Assembly (NCBI GenBank): GCA_949283025.1
Contig: CASDRB010000006.1
Location: 1 to 50,031, forward strand
From: an uncultured bacterium
GTDB taxonomy: Bacteria > Bacillota_I > Bacilli_A > RFN20 > CAG-826
Length of the DNA stretch: 50,031 nucleotides
Direction of reading: 5' to 3'
The notes below the pieces were generated by a model. The model was not told the origin of the DNA. It saw nothing but the letters and a program-made list of their open reading frames with translations, and ran no database searches. This document shows, piece after piece, positions 28,650 through 38,337 of this stretch; position 1 is the stretch's first letter; each line of letters starts with the position of its first letter. A program made the position numbers and the translations under genes.

Positions 28650-29699
28650 TTAATCATAGATAACAATATCCACTATAACGTTAGGTGTATATAGACTTAA
28701 AATACCATTCACAAATTGATTAAAGCCTGTTGATGAATTACCGCTTCCTATCCAATCGTAGATTGGCAAAGATTGTCCTGTTCCATTTAATATGCCACAA
28801 CTTATAGAATAAGTATGTCCAACATAATATTCAAATGAATATGAATTATCAATTATGTCTTTTAAATATATGGTTTGCAAATTATTTTGTGAACTTCCAT
28901 AAATATATTGCATATCCATAATATTTATGTATAAATCAGCCATATCATAATTGGATTTATTTTCAAAAGATAATATCGCATTGAATGAGTCAAGTTTAAC
29001 ATTTCCATATTCAACTACATTAAATTTTTTTATCAACGTCCCAAGTGAGGAGTTATTAGGCTTTAAATTTACATAAATATACGTTTCGCCAACATTAATT
29101 TGTTTTAAATCTATAATTAATTTACCGCCCACGATAATATTAGAATTGCTTGATTTTGTTGGTCTAAATTCAATAGCACCGTCAGGAATAACATTTTGAT
29201 TAGATGAATAAATAGTTGCTTTTACACTGGTTATATAATTTGAAGAACTAATATTAGGAAAAAATAAACCTAACTCTTGAGTCACATCCCAACTAACATT
29301 TTTATCTTCAAAACTTGCGCAAGATATAACACCATTGACACTGCTTGCCCAATCAAGATTGTCACTATCATTATTATATTCTCCTACGTGTTTTGTGTTT
29401 ACGCTAATTGTGACATCATGCTTTGGCATAACAAATTTATATCCAAAAGAATCTTGTGTTATGTCTACTTGATTTGAATAAACATTGTCAATCTCATAAA
29501 ATACACTTGTCGATTCAACATCAAAAAATATTAATTCACCGCTTTTTGCAATATCAGGCAAATTACTAAAAGAATAGATTTTATTTTTTTCATAAATAAT
29601 ACTATATGATAAATCATCGCTACTATTTTCAGTAGAGCATGAAGAAAATAATGATGTTGCGAATGCGAAAATAAATAGAATTTTATACATTTTTTTCAT
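28650..29699 (-). CDS. Lipoprotein, probable surface protein of unknown function
   Basis: A 349-residue exported lipoprotein. I place the start at the ATG at 29699, which follows GAGGTATCAAAT and gives a proper signal peptide (MKKMYKILFIFAFATSLFSSC) with a lipobox Cys. The ATG at 29729 would put ten residues in front of the signal. The mature protein is rich in Ser, Asn, Tyr and Ile and looks beta-structured: a VMPKHDVTISVNTKHVG segment resembles repeated surface-domain edges, followed by a jelly-roll-like half. No catalytic motif is seen. It ends 9 bases from the convergent small gene. Confidence 0.8.
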   Translation of the reverse strand: MKKMYKILFIFAFATSLFSSCSTENSSDDLSYSIIYEKNKIYSFSNLPDIAKSGELIFFDVESTSVFYEIDNVYSNQVDITQDSFGYKFVMPKHDVTISVNTKHVGEYNNDSDNLDWASSVNGVISCASFEDKNVSWDVTQELGLFFPNISSSNYITSVKATIYSSNQNVIPDGAIEFRPTKSSNSNIIVGGKLIIDLKQINVGETYIYVNLKPNNSSLGTLIKKFNVVEYGNVKLDSFNAILSFENKSNYDMADLYINIMDMQYIYGSSQNNLQTIYLKDIIDNSYSFEYYVGHTYSISCGILNGTGQSLPIYDWIGSGNSSTGFNQFVNGILSLYTPNVIVDIVIYD

Positions 29700-29763
29700 A
29701 TTTGATACCTCATTTAAATTATAAAACAAAAAAAGAAATAATAGATGAAAAAATGATTTGATA

Positions 29764-30055: not shown

Positions 30056-30280
30056 TTATATTTTAGTTTCTACTAATTTAACAATATCATTAAAACATTT
30101 TAAATTTAATATTTCTTCATTTGTAAATTCAATATTGAATTCTTCTTCAATGTCCATCATTGCCTCTACTAAATCTAAAGAATCAATATTTAGTTGGCTT
30201 AATGGCGTTTCGACAGTTGCGTCTTTAACATTGACATGTTTTGACATTATTTTTTTAATTTTTTCAGCAACATTTTCCAT
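30056..30280 (-). CDS. acpP: Acyl carrier protein
   Basis: A 74-residue acyl carrier protein. The phosphopantetheine attachment Ser lies in NIDSLDLVEAMMDIEEEF near residue 34, the canonical DSL motif. The four-helix layout and acidic character fit type II fatty acid synthesis carriers. A GGAGG-type site precedes the ATG. No fatty acid synthesis genes are adjacent, so it may supply fatty acid, phospholipid or another acyl pathway. Confidence 0.95.
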   Translation of the reverse strand: MENVAEKIKKIMSKHVNVKDATVETPLSQLNIDSLDLVEAMMDIEEEFNIEFTNEEILNLKCFNDIVKLVETKI

Positions 30281-30363: not shown

Positions 30364-30384
30364 TAAAAAACGCCCGAAGGCGTT
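30364..30384 (-). terminator. Terminator of the Tad pilus operon
   Basis: On the minus strand AACGCC-TTCG-GGCGTT forms a 6-bp stem with a stable TTCG tetraloop followed by TTTTATTAAC, 9 bases after the pilin stop. It marks the end of the eight-gene operon. Confidence 0.92.
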
Positions 30385-30392
30385 ATCATTAA

Positions 30393-30587
30393 TCAATAGC
30401 TTTGAAGTTGTTGATCTAATGAATTGTCTGCTGGTTTTGCTCTGTATTCGCTTGTTAAAATTTCACTAACTTTTTCTTCGGCTTTTTTTGTCAAATTAGT
30501 GAACATAACACCTAAAGCTGTTGCTACTGTACCAAAAATTATGGCAACTAATACAATTCCCAACAATTGACCTTTAATCTCAGACAT
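30393..30587 (-). CDS. Flp-like type IVb pilin (candidate)
   Basis: A 64-residue protein with a short polar leader (MSEIKGQ), a 22-residue hydrophobic helix (LLGIVLVAIIFGTVATALGV) and a charged C-terminal part. Size, layout and place at the end of a Tad operon fit the major Flp pilin. It lacks the clean Gly-x4-Glu-Tyr processing motif of Proteobacterial Flp, so the cleavage site is unclear; K-G/Q near residue 6-7 is the best candidate. A GGAGGAG-type site precedes the ATG, stronger than those of the upstream genes, as expected for a highly made subunit. Confidence 0.7.
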   Translation of the reverse strand: MSEIKGQLLGIVLVAIIFGTVATALGVMFTNLTKKAEEKVSEILTSEYRAKPADNSLDQQLQSY

Positions 30588-30598
30588 TTTCTCCTCCT

Positions 30599-30940
30599 TT
30601 AATTATAATATCCGATAACCGTAGAACGAAATACGGAGACTAACACAACATGATTATTAATAATCAATGGATTATATTCGTCCTGCAGTTTATATTCGAC
30701 AACATCACCAAATTTTGGATTGCAATTATTTAAACATGTAAACAAAACATCATATTTTTGTTCTATATAATCAATATATTCATCATCAAAACCACCGCGT
30801 TTTGCGATTAAATAACCAATAGTAATTGCTTTTTGATCTAATTCAGAATATGTTAATTGTAATCCGATCATATCAATTCCAAATAAGAAAAATAAAACGA
30901 CAAAAAACATAGAAAGTATCAATCCAAATTTAAAAGACAT
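30599..30940 (-). CDS. TadE-like pseudopilin
   Basis: A 113-residue protein with one N-terminal membrane helix (FGLILSMFFVVLFFLFGID) and an extracellular domain with two cysteines (FTCLNNC). This is the layout of TadE-type minor pilins. I use the ATG at 30940, since GGGGGA lies 10 bases before it; the TTG at 30943 is less likely. It overlaps the end of the TadC gene by 11 bases and lies 11 bases before the pilin gene. Confidence 0.6.
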   Translation of the reverse strand: MSFKFGLILSMFFVVLFFLFGIDMIGLQLTYSELDQKAITIGYLIAKRGGFDDEYIDYIEQKYDVLFTCLNNCNPKFGDVVEYKLQDEYNPLIINNHVVLVSVFRSTVIGYYN

Positions 30941-31595
30941 CAATTATTTCCCCCATTATTAAAATTATCCCAATTGACAAAAAAACAACAATTAAGGCAG
31001 CGCCTATTAAAGGAAAGGTCGATAAAGCATCTAATTTTTGTCTTTTTTTATCCACTAATTTCATCTGATGGTTTTCACTATGTGAATGAAATAATAAATC
31101 GAAGCGGTTTAATTTATTAACGTCTTCTCCTTCGTCTATCATCTGAAATATAAAAATCATAATATCTTCATATATAGCAGTTTTAAATTGTCTTGCAAAA
31201 TTGACAAAAGGAACTACCGATTTATCTTTATCAATTTCATTTAAAAATTGTTCTATTTTTTGTCTCATCCATTCCGAACAATATTTTTGAACTTCAATAA
31301 AACAATTATAGACGTTTATTCCATTAGACATGAATATTTCAAAATAATTGATTACATAAATAAATTCTTCTTCCCTTTCATTTTTTTGTTTTTCAAGTAA
31401 TGACCAATAACGATAAAATATAACACCTATAACAACAATTAAAATCGCTATACCAATAAGCACCATCAACAAATCAAAAAATATCGCTAAAAATAAGGTG
31501 GCTAAAAATCCACATGCAATACATATTAAGATAATAAAAACTTCTTTTTTAAAAGATAGTCCTAGATTCTCGATTATGATTTTAATTTTTTTCAT
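30930..31595 (-). CDS. Tad pilus inner-membrane platform protein (TadC-like)
   Basis: A 221-residue protein of the type II secretion F domain family. Two N-terminal hydrophobic segments are followed by a cytoplasmic helical domain with EIFMSNGINVYNCF and a central IFQMIDEGEDVNKL, then a C-terminal transmembrane stretch (FPLIGAALIVVFLSIGIILI). It would form the membrane platform with the TadB-like protein, against which the ATPase pushes pilin subunits. It overlaps TadB by 14 bases. Confidence 0.8.
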   Translation of the reverse strand: MKKIKIIIENLGLSFKKEVFIILICIACGFLATLFLAIFFDLLMVLIGIAILIVVIGVIFYRYWSLLEKQKNEREEEFIYVINYFEIFMSNGINVYNCFIEVQKYCSEWMRQKIEQFLNEIDKDKSVVPFVNFARQFKTAIYEDIMIFIFQMIDEGEDVNKLNRFDLLFHSHSENHQMKLVDKKRQKLDALSTFPLIGAALIVVFLSIGIILIMGEIIDVF

Positions 31596-32295
31596 AATTT
31601 GTATAGCCTCTTATATCGACATCAATTAATGTTTTTACACTGATAAAAATGCAAATTAAAAAGAACAAATAATATATTGAAAGACAGATTGGATAAAAAA
31701 CCATTTTAGAAATTTCTTCAAAAAATTGTGCAAGTCCAAACCTCATCGATATCAAAACAACAAAACTCATGGTCCATAAAACTATTAGTTCAACAACTTT
31801 CCTTATTGATAATGCTTTACATTTATAAATGTATTCCTCAATTAATCTAGCTTCTTTAAACAAATAATGAGACATCGCTAAAATATCACCGCCTTGTTCA
31901 ATATATAGTTCAATGATATTTATAAAAATATGGTACACATTAAAACAAAAAAATCTCTGCAAATATTCAATTTTTTCCATGATAGTCAAATCTTTAATGC
32001 CGTTTAGTTCTTCTTGGAAGTCTTGATCTATTTTTAAAGTTGATGTTTCAAAAGATTCTACAATAGATTTAGACGACGATAAAGAAATTATATAAGTATT
32101 GATAAATGTATAACATTGGTGATATCTTTTCCATTTAATGGTGGTTTTCATGATAGTCCAATTCAAAACTGTTGTTAAAAATAGTCCATATGATATCAGC
32201 ACACCCAATGAAAGGAAAAGGTTATTGCTAGTTATGTAACTTATCCCACCGACAAGTAATGAAAAAATAATTTCATAAACAATTAGTTTTTTCAT
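31582..32295 (-). CDS. Tad pilus inner-membrane platform protein (TadB-like)
   Basis: A 237-residue protein with paired N-terminal membrane helices, a central cytoplasmic helical domain (IIELYIEQGGDILAMSHYLF carries the Glu-x-Gly-Gly pattern of T2SF domains) and two C-terminal membrane helices. It starts in an ATGA overlap with the ATPase gene. It is shorter than Proteobacterial TadB, which is typical of reduced monoderm Tad loci. Confidence 0.78.
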   Translation of the reverse strand: MKKLIVYEIIFSLLVGGISYITSNNLFLSLGVLISYGLFLTTVLNWTIMKTTIKWKRYHQCYTFINTYIISLSSSKSIVESFETSTLKIDQDFQEELNGIKDLTIMEKIEYLQRFFCFNVYHIFINIIELYIEQGGDILAMSHYLFKEARLIEEYIYKCKALSIRKVVELIVLWTMSFVVLISMRFGLAQFFEEISKMVFYPICLSIYYLFFLICIFISVKTLIDVDIRGYTNYEKN

Positions 32296-33311
32296 TTTTT
32301 TATACCTTTTAAAAGATTGACTATAGAATCATTTATTATGACTTCATTCTTATGTTTAAAATAATTGTATATTTCAAATTTAAGGCCATAATTATTTACA
32401 AAAATTATATTTGTTAACCGACGTATTATATTGCCTTTTTTATCACACATTTTTGAAACATAAAAATAAAAATGAATGTGCGAATAAATATCTGAGATTA
32501 TATGATTGTCATCCATCTTTTTATCATTCATTTTAATCATTGAAACCATTCTGGATACGATTGTGTCCGCACTTTTACTATGTAGAGTAGTTATGATAGG
32601 AGTTCCTGTCAATGCCGAATTTAAAACATCAATCATTTCTGCGCCTCTTGCTTCAGCAATAATTAACCAGTCAGGATTGCATCTTAAAGCATTTCTAATT
32701 AAAGATGCAGTGTCCATCTTTTGAAAACGTTCGTCGCATTGCCAAAAGTTAATATCGCAAGAAGACAAAAAAGATGTTTGATTTAACTCTAATATATTGT
32801 CTATGACAATAACTCTAGATTTTTCATCTAATTTAGACAAAATATATTTTTGTAATTCTGTTTTACCTGACCCAGTTAATCCTGCTATCACAATAGATTG
32901 TTTCGCATTTAATAGTTTTTGAATAAAGTTGTCGATTTTTTTAGGAAAAAAATGATTATCGTTATTTATTCTTAATTCAGAATGAGCTATTCTAATCGAA
33001 AAATGAATCGCCTTAATATTGCATAATTTGGCGATATATGGATGGACGGCATTTATGCGGTAGCGGGAAATATTAATATCTAAAATAGGTTCAGCAATAG
33101 AAAATGATTTTTCACAAAGATTAGCTAATTGTCGAACAAAATCATATGCTTGTTCATAACATAGTGTTATATTGCTGTGCCTTCTTCCAAACAAATTATG
33201 TTGATAGAATAAATCTTTGCCATTAAAAGATATATCAGTAATGTTGCTATCACTTAATAATGGTTTTAAAAAACTATTTTCAATAAAATAAATTGCCTTT
33301 TCGTGATTCAT
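32292..33311 (-). CDS. Tad pilus assembly ATPase (CpaF/TadA/VirB11 family)
   Basis: A 339-residue secretion ATPase. The Walker A motif is GLTGSGKTE near residue 140, followed by IVIDNILELNQ (Asp-box region), PDWLIIAEARGAEMIDVLNS with the Walker B-like and Glu-Ala-Arg motif, and TTLHSKSADTIVSRM with the His box. The N-terminal ITDISFNGKDLFY segment matches the CpaF N-terminal domain. It powers pilin assembly from the cytoplasm. It is shorter than CpaF of Proteobacteria because the N-terminal extension is missing. Confidence 0.93.
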   Translation of the reverse strand: MNHEKAIYFIENSFLKPLLSDSNITDISFNGKDLFYQHNLFGRRHSNITLCYEQAYDFVRQLANLCEKSFSIAEPILDINISRYRINAVHPYIAKLCNIKAIHFSIRIAHSELRINNDNHFFPKKIDNFIQKLLNAKQSIVIAGLTGSGKTELQKYILSKLDEKSRVIVIDNILELNQTSFLSSCDINFWQCDERFQKMDTASLIRNALRCNPDWLIIAEARGAEMIDVLNSALTGTPIITTLHSKSADTIVSRMVSMIKMNDKKMDDNHIISDIYSHIHFYFYVSKMCDKKGNIIRRLTNIIFVNNYGLKFEIYNYFKHKNEVIINDSIVNLLKGIKK

Positions 33312-33736
33312 CGTCTATTATCCTTTATTTCATAAAACATAGTTTTTTGATAGTCAAAAAAATACATAATTTTACAATTTAATTTCACTTTAACTCCGCT
33401 GCAATATTCGCTTTTGCAAACAAAAGAATCTTCTGCATCATAATAATAAAAGCTAATTTGATAATTATTTGTGTATTTATGCAATGATATTTTTAAATAT
33501 TCTTCCACGCTTTTTTCTAAAATATTTTTTTGAAAATAAGGGATAAAATTAATATCATCTTGAATGATTGGTATAGAATTTTCAAATAAGGTTTTAGGCA
33601 TATTAATCATTGTCTTATTAATTCCGCCTAATTGATAATTCAAAGTGAAACATTGAAAAGAGAAAATAGCGATGCATAGTGAAATAAAAATATTAACCAT
33701 TATCAACACCACCAATGACACAAATGCTTGAGTCAT
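33308..33736 (-). CDS. TadE/TadG-like minor pilin (candidate)
   Basis: A protein of up to 142 residues with one N-terminal hydrophobic helix (LIMVNIFISLCIAIFSF) and an extracellular domain containing a CKSEYC pair. Layout and position before the ATPase suggest a TadE/G-type pseudopilin. The start is uncertain: the ATG at 33736 overlaps the upstream gene by 44 bases, while the ATG at 33700 is preceded by GGTGGTG and overlaps by only 8. The end overlaps the ATPase start (ATGA). Confidence 0.6.
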   Translation of the reverse strand: MTQAFVSLVVLIMVNIFISLCIAIFSFQCFTLNYQLGGINKTMINMPKTLFENSIPIIQDDINFIPYFQKNILEKSVEEYLKISLHKYTNNYQISFYYYDAEDSFVCKSEYCSGVKVKLNCKIMYFFDYQKTMFYEIKDNRR

Positions 33737-34664
33737 AGCAATCTCCTATCAAATTTTTGCTGCTATAATATCTTGTAGAATAAATTAAATTATTCTTATT
33801 CATTCCAAATTCTTCAAATAAAATATTAATGATATAGCCATCCATTTCTTGTTTTTTATTTCTTGGTAAATAAAAATAATTCGTTTCAATGAAGCCGTCT
33901 TTTCTATTTATCGACATTTCAAGACTAATCGGGTTTACATATAATTTACAATTGAAAGTTAATTGGAAAATGTTTTCTTGTGTTTTAATCAAAGTTAAAT
34001 CAATAAATATGGTTCTTGAACTACTTATAAATGGAAATAATTTATTTTTGTCATCAATTATCAATTTAATTTGACTAAATATAGGATAATTATCATTAAA
34101 TTCTAGCAAAAAACGATCTAATGTTAAACGATAATAATACTCGTCAAAATAATCTTGTGGAAATATAAATGATGCTTCGTCTTTAAAATATTTAGTTTCA
34201 TTATTAGTTATTTTTGCAATATATTGTGGACAAACATAATATCCATTTTCAAGATTATTTATTTGGTAAGTTTTATTTTGGTAAGGATAAATCATACATG
34301 ATGCTTTTGCATACGCTCTATTATCAATTGAATAAATTAATTTAAAAGATATTGTTAACCCACTGTCAATTAAGTAGGTAGTATTTAATTTAATATGATA
34401 TTTTTTTGAAGTGATTGTATAACTTTCAAATGGAGAAGCAAAAAATAAAAATTCACCATAATCATTATTTTTTAAATATATATGTAAAGATAGACGAAAA
34501 GAGGTGGGTAATTTGGTATTTACATTTACATCAATATAAGCTAGTTGATTCGTTTCATAAGGCCCAATTTGAGATGTTGAAATATGAAAATATACACTTG
34601 GTGCATATGTAAAACTTAACAACGGAGCAATAAATAATAAAAATAATTTAACAAATCGCTTCAT
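33693..34664 (-). CDS. Exported protein of the Tad locus, unknown
   Basis: A 323-residue protein with a signal peptide (MKRFVKLFLLFIAPLLSFTYA) and no lipobox. The mature part is beta-rich with regular aromatic residues (FRLSLHIYLKNNDYGEFLFF, YSIDNRAYAKASCMIYPY), suggesting one or two beta-sandwich domains on the cell surface. I do not recognise a family. Its place between two pilus genes with overlaps on both sides makes a pilus-tip, anchor or assembly role likely, but that is inference. Confidence 0.7.
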   Translation of the reverse strand: MKRFVKLFLLFIAPLLSFTYAPSVYFHISTSQIGPYETNQLAYIDVNVNTKLPTSFRLSLHIYLKNNDYGEFLFFASPFESYTITSKKYHIKLNTTYLIDSGLTISFKLIYSIDNRAYAKASCMIYPYQNKTYQINNLENGYYVCPQYIAKITNNETKYFKDEASFIFPQDYFDEYYYRLTLDRFLLEFNDNYPIFSQIKLIIDDKNKLFPFISSSRTIFIDLTLIKTQENIFQLTFNCKLYVNPISLEMSINRKDGFIETNYFYLPRNKKQEMDGYIINILFEEFGMNKNNLIYSTRYYSSKNLIGDCYDSSICVIGGVDNG

Positions 34665-34980
34665 AGTATCTAACCATATTTAAAAATTGTTTGCTATATG
34701 TTTTTTTGCGCCTATAAAAAGTTGAAGCCGAATAAATATTTTTCCACCACCAGTGATACTTTTCTATAAAATATTCGTTATTTATATATTCTTTTCCTTC
34801 GTATGACATATATTGAAAAGCTAAAATAACATTGCACGCAAAATTTAAATCTTCATCGTCAATTTTTAGTGAATGCGTGGATAATTTGCATTCTATATTT
34901 TTTAAACAACATAAGTATTTTTGGCAAATTGATGATACATCGCTTATTAATTCGTTCATACTATTATTAGGCGATATCAA
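34648..34980 (-). CDS. First gene of the Tad operon, unknown cytoplasmic protein
   Basis: A protein of up to 110 residues, with the frame open from a TTG at 34980; the ATG at 34959 (MNELISDVSSIC) is the more likely start. It has several cysteines in the first half (SSICQKYLCCLKNIEC) and a basic C-terminal region rich in Tyr, Arg and Lys (YRRKKTYSKQFLNMVRYY). No membrane segment or known domain is seen. Its C-terminal codons overlap the next gene by 17 bases, so it is coupled to the pilus genes and may be a regulator. Confidence 0.55.
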   Translation of the reverse strand: MISPNNSMNELISDVSSICQKYLCCLKNIECKLSTHSLKIDDEDLNFACNVILAFQYMSYEGKEYINNEYFIEKYHWWWKNIYSASTFYRRKKTYSKQFLNMVRYYEAIC

Positions 34981-35036: not shown

Positions 35037-35576
35037 ATGATTATTCTTGTCGGTGCTTCGGCATCTGGTAAAACTGAAGTAGCCAAAATGCTACATAAAA
35101 AATATAATATTGTGAAAATGATTACTACCACCACTCGTCCGATGCGAGTTAATGAAATAAATGGCAGAGATTATTTTTTTGTAAGCAAAGAAGAATTCAT
35201 AAAACGTTTAAATAATAACGAATTTATCGAATACACATTTTATAATGATAATTATTATGGGTCAGGAAAAGATCAAATCGGGCCTAATAAATGTATAGTT
35301 GTTGATCCAAAAGGACTAAAAGCTTTTCAAAATTTAAATAATCCCTCAATTAAGACATTTTTTTTATTTTCAAAAGAAGAAACTAGGTTTAAACGAATGA
35401 TTGCAAGAGGAGATAATGAAAAAGACGCAATAATTCGCATAAAAAAAGACCGTGTCGAATTTGGAAAAGATAAATACAGCAACATCGATTGTTACGTCGA
35501 TAGTGAAAATCAAACAATTGAACAAGTTTGTGATTTTGTATACCAAAAATATTTAGAATTAATCAGTCAAAAATGA
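35037..35576 (+). CDS. Guanylate kinase-like protein
   Basis: A 179-residue P-loop kinase: Walker A LVGASASGKTE near residue 5, then TTTTRPMRVNEINGRDYFFVSKEEF, the nucleotide-binding block shared by guanylate kinases, EYTFYNDNYYGSG, and a C-terminal lid region with RMIARGD. True guanylate kinases have VSHTTR-type and Asp/Glu residues in the same places, so GMP phosphorylation is likely, but the protein is a divergent version and may be a second copy. It has no ribosome binding site and converges with the dehydrogenase gene, overlapping it by 18 bases. Confidence 0.8.
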   Translation: MIILVGASASGKTEVAKMLHKKYNIVKMITTTTRPMRVNEINGRDYFFVSKEEFIKRLNNNEFIEYTFYNDNYYGSGKDQIGPNKCIVVDPKGLKAFQNLNNPSIKTFFLFSKEETRFKRMIARGDNEKDAIIRIKKDRVEFGKDKYSNIDCYVDSENQTIEQVCDFVYQKYLELISQK

Positions 35577-36705: not shown

Positions 36706-38337
36706 TTATTCATCATTGCCGTCTTCATTTGCCTTGTTGTCGGCAATAGTTTTTAATTGTTCAACCCAATCAATATCCAAGATTTCTCCTTGTTCTAAGT
36801 TATCTTTTTCCATGACGGTTTGAATTAAATCTTTACAACGGCGCATGGATAATTCAGATCTAACTTTAAATACGAGCGGTATTTCAGCATAGATACCTTT
36901 ATGACCAGCATCTTGAACTGGCATAGTTGTATCTTCGTAATCTTTTGGATCTAAAGCAAAATACAACTTCAATGATTTTCCAGCAATGGTGATTTTGACA
37001 TATGTCTTTTTATGCAAGCGGAAAGTATCGCCAGAATTAGACACACGAGATTTAACACCATAAGATAATATTTCATTTTTCAAAATATTATAATTTGTGT
37101 GCATTTCTTCATCGCAACCAATCATACGATCAATAAAAGATATTCTTTCATAAACCTTAGCTGGTTTTTCTTCTTCAACAGGTGCAGGAACAACTTCGGG
37201 TTCGGGTGTTGGTTCTTCCACGACTGGTTGTTCTACAACTGGTTCTGGTTTAGGTTCTTCAACTGGTTGTTCTACAACTGGTTCTGGAATCGATTCTTCC
37301 ACGACTGGTTGTTCATTTATTTCATCGTGAAATACTTCTTCCATTACTTGTTCTTCAACAACTGGTTGTTCTACAACTGGTTCTTGTTTGGGTTCTGGTT
37401 TAGGTTCTTCCTTTTTTGGCTCTGGGACCGGAGTTGGTACAGAATTAATTCCGCCTTGGAAATATTGAACAACTAATGGACCTGCAAAAGTTGCGCCTGT
37501 GATATTGCTATGAGAGTTACTTGGTTGGCAATTTCCATGACGACCACCCATATCTGAACGGGCTAATTCATCGCGAACAATATCTCTAACTGCATCGCGA
37601 ATCACTGCTGCTAAAGTGGCAGCATCAATGCCACTTAATCCAGCACCATATCCTGGTTCGGGTGTTGGTTCAGGAGCTGGTTCGGGTGTTGGTTCAGGAG
37701 CTGGTTCTCCTTCCGGCTCAGTTCCTTCTACATATGTTGGAACTGGTTCTGGTTGTGGATCTTCAAATCCGACTCTTGGTTCTTCAATCGTTGGTTCAGG
37801 AATAGAATCTGCTAAAGAATTGACATCATCAATTTCTTCGGGAGTAGAAACTGGTGATTTTTTACCCATAGCAGCCAAACCGACAAAATAGAAAATAAAA
37901 TATCCAATGGTTTCTAAACTTGCACAAGCCAAAACCAAAATAGTCATAATCAAGTCTTTTGGTTCTAAAGCAGAATTGGTCAATAAAGGTTTATACAATC
38001 CTTCAACATTTAAAATCGTGCCTATTAAAGGCAAAAATCCTAATATGACAAAAGGAATGAATCCTAAGTAGCGGGCTTTATGATTAGCAATAGAAACAAT
38101 AAACCAAATTAATAAAAATAAGATGGTTAAAACAAAGCCAGCAAAACCTACATAGGCATATATTGTCCAGCTATTAAACGTATTAAAACTTGTGAATAAA
38201 TTTTTAAATGGTGTCAAATAATCTTGAAATGAAACAGAAAAATTGCCACTGATAAAGCAATAAATTAAAACAGATGCTACCCACATAATAAAAGCGACGC
38301 CAGTGATGATAGCAAAACTGCCTAAAGCCTTTTTCAT
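36706..38337 (-). CDS. Membrane protein with Pro/Glu repeat linker and conserved C-terminal domain
   Basis: A 543-residue protein in three parts. Residues 1-165 hold four membrane helices. Residues 170-400 are low-complexity, rich in Pro, Glu and Val, with tandem PEPTPEPAPEP and VVEQPVVEE repeats around a short block that includes a GATFAGPLVVQYF segment. Residues 405-543 are a folded basic/aromatic domain (RISFIDRMIGCDEEMHTNYN, RVSNSGDTFRLHKKTYVKI, LKLYFALDPKDYED) that I know as a conserved but unnamed domain of gut Bacillota proteins. An AGGAGG site precedes the ATG. It probably sits in the membrane with the last domain in the cytoplasm or wall zone; role unknown. Confidence 0.8.
   Translation of the reverse strand: MKKALGSFAIITGVAFIMWVASVLIYCFISGNFSVSFQDYLTPFKNLFTSFNTFNSWTIYAYVGFAGFVLTILFLLIWFIVSIANHKARYLGFIPFVILGFLPLIGTILNVEGLYKPLLTNSALEPKDLIMTILVLACASLETIGYFIFYFVGLAAMGKKSPVSTPEEIDDVNSLADSIPEPTIEEPRVGFEDPQPEPVPTYVEGTEPEGEPAPEPTPEPAPEPTPEPGYGAGLSGIDAATLAAVIRDAVRDIVRDELARSDMGGRHGNCQPSNSHSNITGATFAGPLVVQYFQGGINSVPTPVPEPKKEEPKPEPKQEPVVEQPVVEEQVMEEVFHDEINEQPVVEESIPEPVVEQPVEEPKPEPVVEQPVVEEPTPEPEVVPAPVEEEKPAKVYERISFIDRMIGCDEEMHTNYNILKNEILSYGVKSRVSNSGDTFRLHKKTYVKITIAGKSLKLYFALDPKDYEDTTMPVQDAGHKGIYAEIPLVFKVRSELSMRRCKDLIQTVMEKDNLEQGEILDIDWVEQLKTIADNKANEDGNDE

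Follow-up and report, generated by a model that had tools for sequence, protein, structure and literature searches.

The Tad/Flp (type IVc) system comprises a TadA-like ATPase, paired platform proteins, a short pilin and TadE/F-like minor proteins, and its defining features include the prepilin peptidase TadV and an Flp pilin bearing a class III leader with E5-Y6. Cutting off the leader, the task of a prepilin peptidase, counts as central to the way type IV filaments are built in the available part of the source consulted (PMC4471445). In the accessible portion of Imam et al. 2011 (PMC3244431), Gram-positive tad-like loci are described that lack prepilin motifs ('no Flp' groups) but contain tadV, and Mollicutes are given as lacking tad-like genes. 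The ComG competence pilus likewise has a T2SSE ATPase and small pilins, together with the ComC peptidase and the ComGC prepilin.

Here an operon is described from the genome of an uncultured bacterium of the RFN20 lineage, located in a window that denotes the whole 50,031-nucleotide stretch analysed. The operon has a TadA-like ATPase, a short pilin and putative counterparts of the other Tad components listed above but differs from Tad/Flp systems in that TadV is absent from the genome, the pilin has no class III leader with E5-Y6, TadZ, RcpA and RcpC are absent from the operon, the host is probably wall-less and some relatives are motorless. The operon is Tad-like and would work in a similar way to a standard Tad pilus, but it has neither TadV nor an Flp pilin with a leader, both of them defining features, and does not belong in that class. 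It shares tad-like genes and the lack of a recognisable prepilin signal with the 'no Flp' loci; those loci, as far as the accessible portion of that source (PMC3244431) describes them, belong to Clostridia-type species and have tadV, tadZ and rcpC homologues, none of which is in this operon. Literature searches, covering listings and passages of some papers, turned up no work on pilins that lack a leader, on a Tad machine without its motor or on pili of RFN20 bacteria. A lineage that apparently dispenses with the prepilin peptidase would make the requirement for leader removal testable.

Organization and conservation of the operon

Eight open reading frames on the minus strand, numbered here as genes 1 to 8, span positions 30393 to 34980 and mostly overlap or nearly overlap. 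A short guanylate-kinase-like gene (35037 to 35576, plus strand; PF00625, E 5.7e-22) is the divergent upstream neighbor, an arrangement shared by 68 of the 88 loci that extend far enough. An intrinsic-terminator-like hairpin, identified by RNA folding (30369 to 30384, minus strand, read from 30384 to 30369; z -3.25), lies 3' of gene 8, so the downstream gene encoding acyl carrier protein (ACP; 30056 to 30280, minus strand; PF00550, E 3e-9) is probably a separate transcription unit. Of 78 loci that extend far enough, 60 have ACP as the same-strand downstream neighbor. The window also encodes a putative lipoprotein of 359 residues with no Pfam match (28650 to 29729).

A single-sequence scan of genome contigs gave no match, whereas an alignment query found 222 relatives, the best 80 of which were kept as named loci. 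Among these best 80 of 222 the carriers are metagenome-assembled genomes, many from rumen or gut, filed under Bacilli, Bacillales or Erysipelotrichaceae and including Ca. Onthovivens and Ca. Fiminaster equi. Iterated profiles recovered the operon neighbors in the same order among relatives. With the named loci added to those of the genome set, all eight genes were present in 61 of 80 loci that had enough flanking DNA, 59 of which have them in the same order and on the same strand, although these loci are not all independent because the genome set and the named contigs partly overlap (G002 and CAJOOD010000082.1, for example, look like one and the same contig). The gene absent from incomplete loci was gene 1 in 13 cases, gene 2 in five and gene 3 in one. 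Such conservation cannot be chance, and the eight-gene operon is real. A sequence-only reading of this DNA had described a Tad/Flp-like operon of eight genes lacking TadZ and a secretin; the gene complement was borne out, and neither TadZ nor a secretin was found within the operon.

ATPase and platform proteins

Gene 4 (32292 to 33311, minus strand) was assigned as a TadA/VirB11-type ATPase from its PF00437 match (E 1.5e-22), an alignment of 33 homologues (A6) and PDB matches that included CpaF chains (E 8e-12). The Walker A motif is intact, the Glu, Arg and His motifs are conserved, and the catalytic residues are invariant or nearly so across the 33 aligned sequences. The best NCBIfam scores, 110.6 bits for VirB11 and 106.3 bits for the TadA type (cut-off 373 bits), were both under their cut-offs, and the ATPase assignment made earlier holds by the PF00437 match. 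Querying with gene 4 gave matches in 39 of 58 relatives, of which 37 were of the operon type; those in G041 and G054 are distant pilus ATPases with full-length PF00437 matches and were left out of the 37.

Gene 5 (31582 to 32295, minus strand) encodes a putative TadB-like platform membrane protein, as suggested by position, predicted topology and conservation. The putative TadC-like platform protein is encoded by gene 6 (30930 to 31595, minus strand), for which T2SSF matched three of 32 family members (best E 2.3e-5). Both these assignments and the TadE/F-like ones given below draw on few weak matches, which counts against the machine proposed here. As an observation apart, ATPase and platform genes like those of the operon adjoin conjugation-like genes at locus L179 (G062), among them one for a 602-residue ATPase-like protein.

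The pilin and small membrane proteins

Gene 8 (30393 to 30587, minus strand) encodes a candidate short pilin with the N-terminus MSEIKGQLLG and no long leader. Among 114 pilin hits, 86 distinct homologues share this pattern, starting M[SGA]E[ILF][KN][GA] directly behind a ribosome-binding site that matched Shine-Dalgarno (SD) at no fewer than five of six positions in 83 and at least four in all. Residue 3 is E in all 86, as demanded by the search pattern [MVL][SGA]E[ILFM][KNR][GAS]; residue 4 is I, L or F, and Q occupies residue 7 in 82. The second residue is always one of the three (S, G or A) that methionine aminopeptidase favours. Six more loci fail the pattern through V at residue 4, one also having T at residue 2, and begin M[ST]EVKG. 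No Flp family match was listed among 33 pilin members.

Gene 7 (30599 to 30943, minus strand) encodes a putative TadF-like single-transmembrane protein, PF16964 matching five of 33 members (best E 2.5e-4). Gene 3 (33308 to 33736, minus strand) is predicted from alignment and start analysis to encode a TadE-like counterpart and had no Pfam match above chance; its start is at 33736, favoured by the SD match, or at 33700, as in most homologues. In most loci gene 7 begins M[SGA]xK, gene 3 opens with M[IVL]N or a comparable motif, and the transmembrane segment is entered within about 2-5 residues in both, with starts picked by best SD match such that some rows took implausible internal starts. No leader is apparent on either protein, and the pilins look leaderless as well.

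The nearly invariant K-G/A pair of the pilin (K at residue 5 in 85 of 86; G at residue 6 in 80 and A in six) would also be expected if an unrecognised membrane peptidase cut after residue 6 to yield a conventional mature Tad-like pilin. We consider such cleavage unlikely, since genes 3 and 7 have no common K-G/A site, the pair is not followed by Glu at +5 (neither E5 nor Y6 occurs after K-G) and no A24 peptidase was detected by Pfam or lineage profile. The earlier statement that the pilin lacks the classical processing site stands with respect to the missing Glu at +5, but has to be qualified by the K-G/A pair kept at residues 5-6.

Prepilin peptidase and competence genes

The A24 prepilin peptidase (PF01478) was absent from this genome in a genome-wide search and present in two of 58 relatives, both of which lack the operon-type ATPase. 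A lineage-specific full-length profile made from six Bacilli A24 proteins was likewise negative here and returned the same two strong hits with nothing credible elsewhere; by both searches the peptidase is absent from all 37 relatives that have the operon-type ATPase. A hidden A24 peptidase was considered and rejected, as Pfam and the lineage profile were negative and the leftover hits, from other genomes and with E values no higher than 1, were short weak fragments, the best of which (E 7e-4, in G039) contains three stop codons. The search was sensitive, since A24 was found in 147 of 346 genomes of the class; only G302 and G368 were listed from the family of this host (f1). The sequence-only reading had noted that the unit contains no prepilin peptidase and had proposed a search for a distant one; that search extends the absence to the whole genome.

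At the six A24 loci inspected, from G302 and five f17 genomes, the peptidase gene was in no case inside a Tad-like operon. Canonical prepilins of the FTLIEL, FSLVEL or FTIVEL type were found within the listed stretch at three of the six (L188, L190 and L191) and not within that of the other three (L192, L193 and L195). G302 (L188, L189) carries both an A24 gene and a leaderless operon; the A24 gene is beside canonical KAFTLIEL prepilins, and gene 7 of its own operon keeps the leaderless MAYK start. Separately, three f17 loci (L166, L173 and L174) contain longer Tad-like operons with pilin-like proteins starting M[KR]E, and their extra genes are apparently what we take to be CpaB/RcpC-like, TadZ-like and three-transmembrane TrbC/VirB2-like genes.

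ComEC is present in this genome, a result which would be expected if the operon encoded a competence-type DNA uptake machine, the alternative named in the sequence-only reading. Yet ComEC occurred in 26 of the 37 relatives that have the ATPase and in 13 of the 21 that lack it (Fisher p 0.57), no A24 peptidase and hence no ComC was found, and the operon has no ComGC-like prepilin and no pilin of the FTLxE type. A role in competence is therefore very improbable, and with no association with ComEC it was rejected.

Host cell envelope and the proposed machine

Neither this genome nor 32 of the 34 genomes of its family have the transpeptidase domain of penicillin-binding proteins (PF00905), and FtsW/RodA (PF01098), also absent from the host, was over the cut-off in one of the 34. 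Since both markers are missing, the host is probably wall-less. The description of the host as a monoderm understated the case, the wall-synthesis markers being missing too. PF00905 is missing in 31 of 37 genomes with the operon-type ATPase versus 14 of 21 others; the operon can thus coexist with loss of the wall, but the two are not significantly linked.

On balance we lean towards a peptidase-independent, stripped Tad (type IVc-like) machine, at work in a cell that has one membrane and probably no wall. Driven by the ATPase (gene 4), the TadB/TadC-like platform (genes 5 and 6) would lift the pilin (gene 8) and the TadE/F-like subunits (genes 3 and 7) out of the membrane to form a filament or a mere stub, and this may display the Ig-like protein of gene 2 for adhesion or as a structural element. 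The subunits would be made without a removable leader; the start codon, and probably removal of Met, would define their N-termini, so that a prepilin peptidase would not be needed. The earlier suggestion of a minimal pilus or pseudopilus machine gains from the conservation across an order and the genome-wide absence of A24, but its two supposedly unknown genes are not unknown, as described below.

Relatives without the ATPase

NF045770, the family to which gene 1 belongs, matched once each in 47 of 58 relatives, 15 of which have no operon-type ATPase. Gene 1 directly precedes ACP in G041, and in G056 the contig stops within the locus. Thirteen relatives, at least 90% complete, have gene 1 followed by small single-transmembrane and platform-like genes with no ATPase or pilin gene at the locus. 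At least one further operon profile matched in 11 of these 13 loci, those of G043 and G057 being assigned by position only. T2SSE was not over the cut-off anywhere in 12 of the 13 genomes, and G054 has a separate pilus ATPase elsewhere. The cleanest such locus, that of G012 from the same family as the host, consists of genes 1, 2, 3, 5, 6 and 7 followed by ACP; at the place expected for the ATPase gene, genes 3 and 5 simply overlap. Profile comparison showed that genes 2, 3 and 7 of the motorless loci are homologous to their operon counterparts (E 4e-15, 1e-7 and 1e-12; reversed controls 0.53, 0.21 and 0.08). In the f4 family the platform gene dwindles from 295 to 145 and 114 residues. The tree placed G012 inside f1, where several supports are low, and apart from families f3, f4 and f5, which indicates at least two changes; outside f1 these may be losses or a gain of the motor.

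For genes 2, 3, fused 5/6 and 7 of the motorless block pN/pS was 0.13-0.33 in two genus pairs, and the block is under purifying selection where tested. This selection, and the persistence of gene 1 and the membrane-gene block in the 13 relatives, would also fit a static or secretory membrane complex that never forms a filament, in which the platform and single-transmembrane proteins display or export the gene 2 protein and the ATPase and pilin are optional. That account is improbable for the operon itself, given that the catalytic residues are conserved in genomes bearing the ATPase and that pilin and ATPase are lost together. The best reading, compatible with the stripped Tad machine proposed above, is that the surface-protein core of a Tad-type machine can outlive its motor, and the selection on the motorless version suggests that part of a pilus machine can function without polymerisation.

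Genes 1 and 2

Gene 1 (34648 to 34980, minus strand) encodes a small helical protein of the MG284/MPN403 family, with an NF045770 match of 43 bits above the curated cut-off of 37.3 (E 3.2e-11). The same family matched 32 of 33 aligned homologues, eight of which also matched the ArpU regulator. The AF2 model (pLDDT 91) has four helices; Foldseek gave nothing below E 1e-3, and its weak matches include several sigma factors. Gene 1 is probably HTH/sigma-4-like and a putative regulator. Neither the view that it matches nothing known nor its description as Cys-rich survived, the protein belonging to a named family and its cysteines not being conserved among homologues.

Gene 2 (33693 to 34664, minus strand) encodes a beta protein predicted to be exported or N-terminally anchored (AF2 pLDDT 87.9). 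Residues ~25-129 form an Ig/FnIII-like domain with VIA-align Z of about 10 to matches that include V. cholerae RbmA, a comparison that covers mainly these residues and barely probes the second half. Proline follows the hydrophobic stretch in 57 of 92 sequences versus 33% expected from composition, a weak sign of anchoring. Structure prediction, which had been recommended for both proteins, thus upheld the beta-rich character of gene 2 and supplied the known fold that it was thought to lack.

Relationship to Mycoplasma-like genomes

NF045770 was found in 87 of 346 genomes of the class, including small f22 genomes in which TGA codons within the gene are translated. In 18 of 19 f22 loci fetched gene 1 heads a cluster with two further ORFs, X and Y (some ORFs fragmented), without the Tad platform, and an ACP-like ORF follows Y in 11 of the 19; locus L233 has neither X nor Y. 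We take gene 1-X-Y in mycoplasmas to be MG284-MG286 and MG287 to be ACP. Literature searches on MG284-MG287 and MPN403-405 returned only unrelated papers or none.

Y matched gene 3 with E 1.6e-4 (probability 50%, 58 columns; reversed control 0.22; none of 150 shuffles as good) and the smaller gene 3 profiles with E 0.0099 and 0.025, while other true profiles gave E down to 0.0026 at its hydrophobic N-terminus. X, which has no N-terminal hydrophobic stretch, matched gene 2 with E 0.11 over a collinear C-terminal stretch (none of 150 column shuffles as good) and genes 3 and 4 with E 0.025 and 0.053. Taken with the synteny, homology of X and Y to genes 2 and 3 is suggestive.

We tentatively propose, while regarding it as somewhat doubtful, that the locus is one stage in a stepwise dismantling of Tad in wall-less Bacilli, in which the peptidase is absent, motor and pilin were lost together at least twice, the platform eroded, and mycoplasmas were left with gene 1 and diverged gene 2/3 homologues X and Y beside ACP. 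If so, the conserved function would reside in the core of genes 1-3, a surface complex kept in near-minimal genomes, and the Mycoplasma link, if it holds, would give the uncharacterised genes of such genomes their first structural hypothesis. In ten or so loci listed from f25 and f20 gene 1 occurs without Tad neighbors, indicating that it is not tied to pilus genes. The window also encodes a membrane protein containing an extended stretch of Pro-Glu repeats (36706 to 38337), and a similar protein is found near gene 1 at locus L205.
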